Shown here: piece by piece, positions 30,573 to 34,984 of the stretch
How positions within the stretch are numbered: position 1 is the first letter of the stretch
How the letters are laid out: the number at the start of each line of letters is the position of its first letter
NCBI GenBank assembly: GCA_958295945.1
Contig: OY282386.1
Span: 992,001 to 1,056,000 of the forward strand
Source: Candidatus Poribacteria bacterium
GTDB taxonomy: Bacteria; Poribacteria; WGA-4E; WGA-3G
DNA: 64,000 nucleotides
Direction: 5' to 3'
The notes under the pieces: model-generated
What the model was told of the DNA's origin: nothing
What the model saw: only the letters and a program-made list of their open reading frames with translations
Databases searched by the model: none
Translations under genes and position numbers: made by a program

Positions 30573-32183
30573 TTATTCAATAAAACCACGCAGACGGTGG
30601 CTTCGGATGGGATGGCGGAGCTTACGCAGTGCCTTCGCTTCTATCTGACGGATACGCTCACGAGTCACATCAAAAACAGTACCCACTTCTTCAAGCGTTT
30701 TCGGATATCCCGTTGTAATACAAAGCTCATCAATCCGCTTACGCGTAGATTGTGACAATAACGGGGAGGCAGTGTCGTCTTCAATACCGAAACGGAGGAC
30801 AATCACTTCACGTTCACGCTCCGATAAATCCGCAAGTGCTTCCTGGATACGTTCTTTGAGAATGCTCAGCTCGGCTTCAGTTGCAGGAGAAAGCACAGAA
30901 ACATCTTCAATAAAATCACCTAATTGACTGTCATCATCGTCATCTCCGATCGGTGTTTCTAACGAGACAGTCTCAGGCACGATCCGCAAGACCTCTCTGA
31001 CCTTTTCTGTCGGGATATCCATATCTGCAGCAATCTCTTCGGGTGTCGGTCTCCGGCCTAAATCTTGTAGCAGTGAACGTTCCGCCCGCTTCATCTTATT
31101 TATTCTCTCGTGCATGTGGACAGGAATACGGATAGTTCGTCCTTGATCCGCTATTGCACGCGTGATGCTCTGGCGAATCCACCACGTTGCATAAGTACTG
31201 AACTTAAACCCACGCTGATAGTCAAACTTCTCAACTGCACGCATCAAACCGATATTGCCCTCCTGAATCAGATCAAGAAATTCCATTCCAGGTGCTTGAT
31301 GTCTATATTTTTTGGCAATACTCACGACTAACCTGAGGTTCGCCTCAACGATTGCCAGCTTTGCATCTTGGGCATTTTCTTCTCCGATCATAATTTGTTT
31401 GGTGACAGATTGGAGTGCATCCCGCGAAATACCGACAGTATTGAGATACTGCTGAATTTCACGTTGATAACGCACAATAGTGATGTACGCCTCTTTCGCA
31501 GCTTTTGTTTTGAATTTATGCTCCTTCGCATTAAGTCTGCCGTTCAACCATTCTGCGGGGATTTTATGCTGTTTTTGCAGACGCAAAATTTCCTGTTCAC
31601 GATTACTGACGTTCTGCTCTACTTCTGTCACCTTACCTGAGATATTGCTAATCTCTTCTCGGTCAATTTTCAACTGATCCAGAATTTTCATAAAGGTCGC
31701 GTAACTACGAATTGACATCAATTCTATATGGGAACCGTTTTTTGATGCCTCCTTTGCAGCAACAAGGTATTCCAATTCCAATTTCTCAATCGTATGCATC
31801 GCCCGTTCAACTCTATCACGTAGTTTTCGTTCCTTATCACGTGTTGAATTGCTGGAAACTTGCATATCAATAATATCTGATGCACGTTTTTTGGTTATGA
31901 TAATCTTATATAGAAGTTTACGCACCTCCGCAATAGCAAAACGTGTGGTAAAGGTCGCTTCTTGTGCTTGACGTAGACCTGTTTCAATCTGTTGTGATAA
32001 TTCTATCTCTCTATTTTTATCAATCAACTGTATTCTTCCCATTTCACGCAGATACTGTTTGATGAGATCCTCGCGTTCACTGATCTCACTCGGTTCAAAC
32101 TCTATATCCTCATCAAATTCTGCTTGGTCAGAACCATCAGATTCATTAAATTCAAGTAGGTCTGTATTATTACCATATTCCAC
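30573..32183 (-). CDS. rpoD: Primary sigma factor RpoD (sigma70/SigA) with a region-4 insertion
   Basis: 536-residue primary sigma factor for RNA polymerase. Region 1.2 is [20 protein letters not shown] spacer with coiled-coil character follows, then region 2.1-2.4 with [22 protein letters not shown] and [25 protein letters not shown]. Region 3 carries [18 protein letters not shown] and [13 protein letters not shown]. Region 4 carries [18 protein letters not shown] and [22 protein letters not shown]. About 24 residues ([20 protein letters not shown]...) are inserted between GIEDDT and TLEEVG, within the region 4.1-4.2 linker, where E. coli RpoD has none. The start is GTG 32183 with GGAG upstream. 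It lies downstream of dnaG and a truncated sigma paralogue. Confidence 0.95.
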
Positions 32184-32413
32184 AAGTCAGCTCTCCTTTC
32201 TGTTTTTTCTGTGGTTACCTTATCCTCAATATTACCAAATTATTTCTTAATCTTCATGCAGTTTGCGCTACAATTATTGCTTATACCGAACACACCTTCA
32301 ATTTAATTATTTTGCTGTATCATTAGTCCCGTAGGGACGGAGTGTTTATAAAAAAATGTTGTCCATCCCTCTTGAGTTCCGTAGGACGATATGTTTATAG
32401 ATTGCGTCTGAAC
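32184..32413. repeat. Two copies of the GTCCCGTAGGGAC-type repeat between sigma genes
   Basis: TAGTCCCGTAGGGACGGAGTG (near 32324, first 20 bases) and GAGTTCCGTAGGACGATATG (near 32376) are tandem copies of a dispersed repeat also seen inverted at 17341 and partly at 42471. The second copy touches the 3' end of the truncated sigma paralogue, so it may mark the breakpoint that removed the rest of that gene. Confidence 0.7.
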
Positions 32414-32971
32414 TCAACATTCACTATTTGCACCTTGACCTGCAATGGCACGACTAACATCTTGTCGGATCCACCATTCTGCATAAGTCTTAAACTGGAA
32501 ACCACGTTGATAATCGTAATGATCAATAGCACTTAGCAATCCACTATTACCCGCCACAACCAGATCAAGAAATTCCATTTCAGGTGCTTGGTGTCTATAT
32601 TTTTTCGCAATGTTCACGACTAACCTGAGATTCTCCTCCAGAATTGCCATTTTTATTTTTGCCTCTACAACATCATCCGCTTCGTCAGTGTTAATCTGAT
32701 TGGAAATACTTTTCAGTGCCTCACGGGTGAGACCAATTTTTTTGAGATACACGCCAATCTCACTATGATAACGGCTTATCTCTTCGTATGCACTTTTTTC
32801 CACATCAGTTTCAAAGTCATGTGTATCGGCATTGAAGTCCTCTGAGAACCATTCCGCAGGCATATTATGCTGTTTTTGAATCTCGTCAATTTTTTGTTCA
32901 CAATCACTTATATGACGCTCAACTTCGCTTATCTGTTTAACTATGGGACGGATATTTTTTGAATTCACCAT
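32414..32971 (-). CDS. Truncated sigma70 paralogue containing only region 2
   Basis: 185 residues, similar to residues about 195-385 of the adjacent RpoD. The spacer segment is EVERHISDCEQKIDEIQKQHNMPAEW (in Rpo[10 protein letters not shown]), then region 2 reads [47 protein letters not shown] and FKTYAEWWIRQDVSRAIAGQG, ending ANSEC. It lacks region 1.2 and all of regions 3 and 4. The tryptophan pair and Gln of region 2.4 (WWIRQ) are kept, while the EGN of region 2.1 is AGN. An AGGAGA site overlaps the dnaG stop 8 bp upstream, so it should be translated with dnaG. It may be a decaying duplicate or a core-polymerase-binding competitor. Confidence 0.85.
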   Translation of the reverse strand: MVNSKNIRPIVKQISEVERHISDCEQKIDEIQKQHNMPAEWFSEDFNADTHDFETDVEKSAYEEISRYHSEIGVYLKKIGLTREALKSISNQINTDEADDVVEAKIKMAILEENLRLVVNIAKKYRHQAPEMEFLDLVVAGNSGLLSAIDHYDYQRGFQFKTYAEWWIRQDVSRAIAGQGANSEC

Positions 32972-32979
32972 TAGTTCTC

Positions 32980-34935
32980 CTATGTGCTTTGTGTGGTAAC
33001 CGTATCATCTTCAAGTTGTGGTGAATTTGATGCTTGATCAGAACGCTCCTTTTTGACAACAGCACGTCTTTGTTTTGTTAGTTCACAAAGTTCCTTGAGA
33101 GACGATTCATAATCATCGGAATCTTGTGAAATTGACCGCACCTGTTGTTCAAGTTCTTGTATCAGAAATCCTTTCAGTTTATCTATACACCCATCTATTC
33201 GCGCTTTGTGAGAGGGGAAATCAATGCTGTTACTAGAAATCATCAGTGCTTGAGAGATAAAAGTTAATGCATATTCATCTTCACAAGTATTCAAGATATA
33301 TTGAATATCAACGGAATCATTTTCAGTTGCTTCCCAGAGTAATTTAGTTATATATTTAAGGTTCTCATCTGAAATGTCACTATAGTCAAATTTGTCTTTA
33401 ATATCTGGTATTAGTTTGGGAGCTTGAATTAGGGTTTGGACAAAAAGTAGTTCTATTTTCTCACGTATTGATGAAATATTTGAACTATCAAAAGGCCTTC
33501 TGATACTACGTTGGGATACTTTATCTTTTGGAGATAGTTCTTTTGATAAATCTGTCTTTTCTTGTTTTTCTCGCTGTATTTTCTGTGCCCTCTTCTTTTT
33601 TTCTTCTATATATTCCTGAGAAGGTTGTGCCTTTACTCCAATAGATTTTAATTCTTGCCAAATTAATCCCTCATCAACACTCAACTGATTTACAACGGAT
33701 TTAATATAAATAAACCGGTCTGTCTCGTTCTTGATTTTTGCAAGTATATTGACTATATCTTTGACAACTTGTGTCTTGACTTCAGGATTACGGATGTTGC
33801 CATGTCTTATCGCAGACTGAATTTGAAATTCGATCAGATTAATCGCTTTGTCAAGTAATTCATTAAATGAATCTGCCCCATTTGTCTTTACAAACGAATC
33901 AGGGTCATCACCGGTCGGCATCAACGCAATACGCACACGGATCTCCTCAGCGATCAACCTTTCCAACCCACGTTGTGCAGCTTGCAATCCAGACGCATCT
34001 CCATCAAAAACTATTACCACTTCGGGTGTATAACGTTTCAATAAAGAAGCGTGGTTTTCACTAAGGGATGTACCAGAGGAGGCTATAACATTCTCAATCC
34101 CATGCTGTTGCAACATCAACACATCCATATAACCTTCCACAAGCAGTGCCGACTGTTTTCTGGAGATAGATTGTTTCGCCTTGTCAAGATTGAAAAGAAT
34201 ATCGCTTTTGTTGTATAGCACAGTCCCGGGTGAATTGAGATATTTCGGTTGATGTTCATTAGAGAGTGCTCTCCCACCAAATCCAACAGGAACTCCCTGC
34301 GTATTATGGATCGGAAACAGAATACGATTCCAGAAACGATCTTGCGGTCCTTTATCCTCGTTCTTAATCAAACCCGCATCCACCAGTTGCTGAATAGCCC
34401 ATCCTTCGTGCGTAGCAGCCTTATACAGATCGCGCCGTTGCTGTTTGGCATAACCGAGTTGAAACAGATTGGTTGTCTGTGACACCACACCTCGGTTCTT
34501 CAGATATTCACGCGCATGCTGACTGTGTTGTCCCGTCCGAAGCAGCTCATGATAATACTTCATAGCAAACCTATTGAGTTCACTCAACTCACTGATAAGT
34601 TTCTGACGCGCACTCACTTTAGCATCTTTTGTCGGCAACGGAATATTCGCTCGTTCAGCAAGCCATTCTATCGCTTCAATGTAAGTCTTGCCTTCATGTT
34701 TCTGTAGAAAATGGATTACATTACCACCCGTCTCGCAACCGAAACACTTGAATATCTGCATCTCCTGAGAAACAGAAAAAGACGGCGTTTTCTCTTGATG
34801 AAACGGACAGAGTCCTTGATAGTTTCGTCCTGCTTGTTTAAGCGGAACGCCACACTCTGTTATGACTTCTACGATGTCATTTTGAGTCCGTATTTCGTCA
34901 ATCGTTTCTGGTGGAATATAGTTTCTTGTTGCCAT
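32980..34935 (-). CDS. dnaG: DNA primase DnaG
   Basis: 651 residues from ATG 34935, chosen because AAGGTGAT lies just upstream; an in-frame start at 34974 lacks one. It synthesises RNA primers at the replication fork. The N-terminal CHC2 zinc domain reads CPFHQEKTPSFSVSQEMQIF and KCFGCETGG. The catalytic core has YFHLKRGV-type sequence (EYLKNRGV), VGFGGRAL and the TOPRIM motifs ALLVEGYMDVL (Glu) and VIVFDGDASGLQAAQRG (the DGD acidic pair). The C-terminal ~200 residues are divergent, Lys/Glu/Gln-rich and presumably bind helicase. It is followed by the truncated sigma paralogue and rpoD, a variant of the dnaG-rpoD arrangement, and is preceded by mutS2. Confidence 0.96.
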   Translation of the reverse strand: MATRNYIPPETIDEIRTQNDIVEVITECGVPLKQAGRNYQGLCPFHQEKTPSFSVSQEMQIFKCFGCETGGNVIHFLQKHEGKTYIEAIEWLAERANIPLPTKDAKVSARQKLISELSELNRFAMKYYHELLRTGQHSQHAREYLKNRGVVSQTTNLFQLGYAKQQRRDLYKAATHEGWAIQQLVDAGLIKNEDKGPQDRFWNRILFPIHNTQGVPVGFGGRALSNEHQPKYLNSPGTVLYNKSDILFNLDKAKQSISRKQSALLVEGYMDVLMLQQHGIENVIASSGTSLSENHASLLKRYTPEVVIVFDGDASGLQAAQRGLERLIAEEIRVRIALMPTGDDPDSFVKTNGADSFNELLDKAINLIEFQIQSAIRHGNIRNPEVKTQVVKDIVNILAKIKNETDRFIYIKSVVNQLSVDEGLIWQELKSIGVKAQPSQEYIEEKKKRAQKIQREKQEKTDLSKELSPKDKVSQRSIRRPFDSSNISSIREKIELLFVQTLIQAPKLIPDIKDKFDYSDISDENLKYITKLLWEATENDSVDIQYILNTCEDEYALTFISQALMISSNSIDFPSHKARIDGCIDKLKGFLIQELEQQVRSISQDSDDYESSLKELCELTKQRRAVVKKERSDQASNSPQLEDDTVTTQST

Positions 34936-34984
34936 AAGTATCACCTTATTGATTAACGCAATTATTCCTAACAAAACTACAATA

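Follow-up and report, generated by a model that had tools for sequence, protein, structure and literature searches.

Sigma domain 2 on its own has been described chiefly in the form of laboratory fragments and of RsoA. Bacillus subtilis RsoA, which acts with SigO, is a small separate protein carrying sigma region 2 without region 4 (PMC8103513). A module similar by fold and sequence to the one described here, comprising the non-conserved region and region 2, is found in the Escherichia coli sigma70 fragment PDB 1SIG. ECF (group 4) sigmas are likewise small and lack regions 3 and 1.2, functioning without the first helix of the latter (PMC4598750). Sigma70 holoenzymes deprived of region 1.2 do not recognize the single-stranded -10 element (PMC7430646). 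In Candidatus Hodgkinia, eroded sigmas carrying E407A (E. coli numbering, used throughout) belong to the RNA polymerase of a reduced-genome endosymbiont (PMC8321222).

Here, we describe a short sigma gene located between dnaG and rpoD in the genome of a Candidatus Poribacteria bacterium. To our knowledge, this phylum has no cultured member, and no earlier report of the gene was found in a literature search of open-licence papers. Unlike RsoA, its product derives from the housekeeping sigma, retains part of the non-conserved region, and is encoded within the dnaG-rpoD operon, where no neighboring gene supplies a sigma-4 partner. Whereas 1SIG is a laboratory fragment, the short gene is natural and its product lacks region 1.2; in contrast to ECF sigmas, sigma-4 is missing; and, unlike in Hodgkinia, with which the copy studied here has E407A in common, an intact RpoD is encoded alongside. 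The short protein may work most like RsoA or like a natural sigma70 domain-2 fragment. A housekeeping sigma cut to domain 2 and kept beside its parent, with -11/-12 reading separated from -7 reading, would constitute a natural test of what sigma-2 alone does on RNA polymerase, be it to compete, to pause or to share the holoenzyme.

Architecture of the short sigma gene

The window, i.e., the whole 64,000-nt stretch of DNA that was analysed, had previously been interpreted by a sequence-only reading, which placed a truncated sigma open reading frame between dnaG and rpoD and gave it its own AGGAGA site overlapping the dnaG stop codon. Both features were recovered exactly as described (Table 1). 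Similar Shine-Dalgarno sites preceded most orthologs of the short gene and most of their rpoD genes. A promoter and terminator scan at the short gene gave signal no better than chance.

Table 1. Features of the dnaG-rpoD interval; positions are those of the window.
Feature	Position	Strand	Basis or remark
Short sigma paralog, 185 aa	32414..32971	(-)	ORF exact, ATG start, TGA stop
Region 2.1-2.4 (short residues 107-180), with WWIRQ and every -12/-11 reading residue	32432..32653	(-)	Residue-by-residue comparison with E. coli sigma70 and 13 orthologs
C-terminal part of RpoD non-conserved region (short residues ~12-106)	32654..32938	(-)	Alignment and codon model
Initial ~11 codons, of RpoD N-terminal origin	32939..32971	(-)	Alignment with orthologs and RpoD
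Shine-Dalgarno AGGAGA of the short gene	32976..32981	(-)	Overlaps dnaG TAG stop at 32980-32982
dnaG (primase), immediately upstream of the short gene	32980..34974	(-)	Pfam, synteny
Full-length rpoD (regions 1.2, 2, 3, 4), downstream; parent of the short copy	30573..32183	(-)	Pfam, trees
Repeat GTAGG(G)ACG...TGTTTATA, two copies, in the spacer that separates the short gene from rpoD	32329..32399	.	Sequence; relatives' spacers compared

The sole Pfam domain in the short protein was Sigma70_r2 (PF04542; E 6e-13, residues 111-179), which places it in the sigma-70 superfamily; the ortholog in genome G004 matched the same family at E 2e-17. In the same scan, regions 1.2, 2, 3 and 4 were all found in RpoD, which served as the control. 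This single match bears out the claim that regions 1.2, 3 and 4 are absent. The WWIRQ motif is present. The accompanying description of a region-2-only protein stands with respect to Pfam domains but not to the whole chain. By alignment, the protein runs from a head of ~11 residues taken from RpoD, through the C-terminal half of the non-conserved region (~90 residues), to regions 2.1-2.4 and the end. Group 1 sigmas carry regions 1.2, 2, 3 and 4 in one chain, of which region 2 alone was found here, and ECF sigmas join sigma-2 and sigma-4 in one chain, of which region 4 is absent here, the exception being a single fusion in genome G001 (see below). As a region-2-only protein it resembles that subunit of a two-subunit sigma of the RsoA-SigO type, but the neighboring genes are dnaG and rpoD rather than a co-encoded or dedicated sigma-4 partner.

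RpoD was the nearest relative of the short protein in its own genome by similarity, sharing 52% identity over 181 aa (E 5e-64, far beyond chance) and, at the nucleotide level, 75% identity over 222 nt. AlphaFold predicted an all-helical structure (mean pLDDT 86.5, pTM 0.76). When the model was compared with the PDB, sigma70 chains from holoenzymes of E. coli ranked best (Foldseek probability 1.00, E 2e-6); global superposition was poor (rmsd ~16 A), so that the domain is supported and its exact packing is not.

Distribution and origin of the truncation

The named relatives compared were Candidatus Poribacteria metagenome-assembled genomes. Within one genus of sponge-dwelling Candidatus Poribacteria, 14 of the 18 genomes carried the short gene. 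The truncated form is conserved in relatives, which was a check that the sequence-only reading had proposed. Thirteen of these held a complete copy in the order mutS2-dnaG-short-rpoD, with spacers of 54-307 nt before rpoD, and in G010 the final 43 codons of the gene were present where a contig stops. The remaining four (G007, G008, G011 and G013) had dnaG followed by rpoD after a gap of 3-19 nt. No short gene was found in 55 genomes of the order from outside the genus, no stop codon or frameshift was seen in the copies of the 14 carriers, and no relative examined had a full-length extra sigma copy between dnaG and rpoD. The outcome that the sequence-only reading had set against its own proposal, a full-length or absent copy in relatives with freely drifting residues, does not describe the carrying clade, where key residues do not drift; the absences number four. 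This pattern fits either two gains or a single gain within the genus with later loss from the G007/G013 lineage; a single gain is favored because the deletion junction is common to all copies.

All orthologs shared the internal deletion that removed region 1.2, as well as the loss of sequence beyond region 2.4. The heads of the short proteins matched the start of RpoD, as illustrated by the G003 short protein (MMDLGNAHPLDF followed directly by QFKEVER) against G017 RpoD (MDLGNAHPYDFNESD; MDLGNAHPYDF...), and by the G002 pair, MTLGNTHPIVF in the short protein and MELGNTHLLDF in RpoD. One junction between head and non-conserved region in every copy points to one truncation event. In a tree of the shared block the short copies formed one clade (91/87), within which branching largely followed that of rpoD, and the truncation is old. 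Independent truncations in several species are ruled out by the single clade and single junction. Past region 2, the copies of G002, G009 and G014, together with the G010 fragment, retained a short remnant resembling region 3.0 (HINEKIKERSKQ), while the others ended in a few unrelated residues. The proposed course of events would begin in an ancestor of most of the genus with a tandem duplication of rpoD, including its ribosome-binding site. Two parts of the upstream copy would then have been deleted, namely residues ~12-182, which span region 1.2 together with half of the non-conserved region, and all sequence past region 2.4, leaving a helical module of 180-200 aa. A search of viral contigs for a phage origin of the short gene found nothing.

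A repeat near position 32376 had been suggested to have cut the gene. Its copies actually lie at 32329-32350 and, in imperfect form, near 32379-32399. Truncation through this repeat was rejected, as it sits past the stop codon and relatives without it end at the same point. The window held a single instance of the exact form, and the corresponding spacers of relatives showed no such repeat. The spacer of G016 (L031, 307 nt) held a different insert with an inverted repeat (CCGTTGGGTTGAAGAACGAAACC ... GGTTTCGTTCCTCAACTCAACGG), such that small repeats seem prone to arise or insert at this site ahead of rpoD.

In G001, a second copy was observed on contig C70 (L032:628-1761, minus strand), where an ECF sigma that has both region 2 and region 4 was fused in frame to a short copy of the type found in G016 and in the window genome, G000. 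The flank downstream of the fusion also matched the G016 spacer between the short gene and rpoD, which indicates that a segment was duplicated to a second locus. The usual short gene, between dnaG and rpoD, is present in G001 as well.

Selection and residue retention

Across the 13 short genes, a codon model gave an omega of 0.200, with 2dlnL of 306 against omega = 1, these and the other 2dlnL values being approximate because kappa was also fixed, at its free estimate, in the fixed-omega fits. Pairwise dN/dS values agreed with this estimate. Neutrality is rejected and the short gene is under purifying selection. Constraint was evident in region 2, where the sequence-only reading had proposed looking for it (omega 0.183 across the 13 orthologs), and in the part from the non-conserved region (0.208). 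Over the same block RpoD had an omega of 0.065 (0.016 in region 2 and 0.104 in the non-conserved part), i.e., a value roughly threefold lower than that of the short gene. The trio nearest the window copy gave an omega of 0.29 (2dlnL 31.7). Gene conversion from rpoD was considered as a source of this conservation and excluded: synonymous sites between short genes and their own rpoD were near saturation (pS 0.61-0.79), and similarly so against other rpoD genes. Recent decay of the window copy was likewise unsupported, as Tajima tests showed it to evolve no faster than the G016 copy.

Residue roles in sigma70 region 2 were taken from published work (PMC2613000, PMC4496690, PMC4593229, PMC5101437 and PMC8321222). 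Fifteen positions were invariant in all 13 short copies, namely L384, L386, V387, F401, L412, Y421, G424, F427, T429, Y430, W433, W434, R436, Q437 and R441. Since the residue sets came from papers and were applied after the alignment had been seen, P values serve as a guide; on that footing, residues for -12/-11 reading and melting were kept better (P 0.0008) than positions drawn at random from region 2, the -7T pocket (N383, R385, L386, K426 and S428, plus region 1.2) was kept worse (P 0.026), and the four beta-prime contacts as a set showed intermediate retention (P 0.21). In the -7T pocket, region 1.2 was lost, S428 was K, N or R in 12 of 13 copies, K426 was Q in nine, and N383 was H in seven. 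The RpoD-majority residue at the beta-prime contacts was kept by 12 copies at D403, eight at Q406, 12 at E407 and nine at N409. Relative to RpoD and other group 1 sigmas, the short protein thus has the same -12/-11 residues and mostly the same core-contact residues across the shared block, but has lost the -7T pocket along with regions 1.2, 3 and 4.

The window copy retained each -12/-11 residue (T440 as S, Y425 as F), in line with the claim that it keeps the -10 region. Two of its four beta-prime contacts are changed (Q406V and E407A), and given these substitutions this particular copy may bind core weakly. As region 1.2 is needed in sigma70, reading of -10 DNA by the short protein is not assured.

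Candidate functions and other sigma genes

Given its pattern of conservation, the short protein probably functions as a regulator and is not a duplicate in decay. We give an even chance to its being a sigma-2-only accessory factor that binds the beta-prime coiled coil and, at -10-like sequences, modulates transcription by RpoD. Judging by spacing and Shine-Dalgarno sites, the gene would be translated with dnaG and rpoD. The product, by its residue retention, would use region 2.2 to dock on RNA polymerase at the beta-prime coiled coil and, once docked, would engage the upstream half of -10-like sequences, for which the -12/-11 residues, the W-dyad and Q437 are kept, and no longer position -7. 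Without regions 3 and 4 it would not support ordinary promoter recognition, and hence would act either through competition with RpoD domain 2 or through polymerase held at -10-like sequences. The predicted outcome is that RpoD-dependent transcription is damped or retuned. Competition with RpoD for core polymerase, one of the roles offered by the sequence-only reading, agrees with these findings. Counted against such an accessory factor is that four genomes of the genus live without the gene. More tentatively, and with somewhat less than even confidence, we propose that the protein represents a stably inherited, lineage-specific sigma-2-only RNA polymerase subunit derived from the housekeeping sigma, which reads the -12/-11 half of the -10 box only and tunes, pauses or splits primary holoenzyme function.

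Alternatively, as the sequence-only reading had likewise proposed, the short protein could give domain 2 of a two-subunit sigma and a separate protein domain 4, as in B. subtilis RsoA-SigO, where RsoA is itself a region-2-only sigma protein (PMC8103513). That the strongest constraint falls on the DNA-reading face accords with this, and the G001 copy, which follows an ECF sigma (regions 2 and 4) in the same frame, is suggestive, although such a fusion was seen once, within a copied segment. A conserved 124-aa protein consisting of region 4 only is present in 17 of the 18 genus genomes, but its conservation is just as strong in the four that lack the short gene. No region 3/4 partner adjoins the short gene or arose alongside it, and no RpoD-derived region 3/4 gene was found across the 18 genus genomes. 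We consider a two-subunit sigma unlikely.

A pure decoy, binding core but not DNA, would titrate the beta-prime coiled coil and lower the RpoD holoenzyme. In sigma70, a chain without region 1.2 should no longer recognize the -10 element (PMC7430646), and the retention of D403 and E407 in 12 of 13 copies agrees with such a role. The core face should then persist while the DNA face drifts, yet the opposite was seen, and the window copy kept its DNA face while losing Q406 and E407. Because the predicted residue pattern is the reverse of that observed, we regard a decoy as quite improbable.

The sequence-only reading had also raised a decaying duplicate cut by the repeat; such a duplicate would be a truncated pseudogene left open by chance. 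Faster evolution than rpoD, two core-contact residues gone from the window copy, and four genomes without the gene would suit this explanation. However, retention in 14 of 18 genomes with one truncation point and no broken copy, an omega of 0.20 with neutrality strongly rejected even in the trio around the window genome, and a window copy no faster than that of G016 make it very improbable; neither neutral evolution nor inactivating mutations in relatives, the marks of a pseudogene, were found. That translation of the short frame, rather than its product, sets rpoD expression by coupling is suggested by its place directly between dnaG and rpoD and by the repeated Shine-Dalgarno sites, but is extremely unlikely, as an omega of 0.2 and invariant DNA-reading residues are unexpected for a leader and the 54-307 nt spacers make coupling to rpoD weak.

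Other sigma genes were observed in the window genome. The 124-aa stand-alone region-4 protein is encoded there by a single copy at L091:2614-2988 on the minus strand (G000:C1:3008116-3008487), is 79-94% identical across the 17 genomes, and receives no equivalog name from family libraries. Sigma region 2 was matched 46 times in the genome. Many of these matches fall in open frames 550-1079 aa long, which are probably ECF sigmas with long C-terminal extensions. In addition, a 558-aa RpoD-like sigma at L092:2728-4404 on the minus strand (G000:C1:4181362-4182489) contained two region-2 matches, one weak and N-terminal and the other strong, followed by regions 3 and 4. Proteins of a length near 558 aa that match the short query occurred in nearly every genome of the genus.
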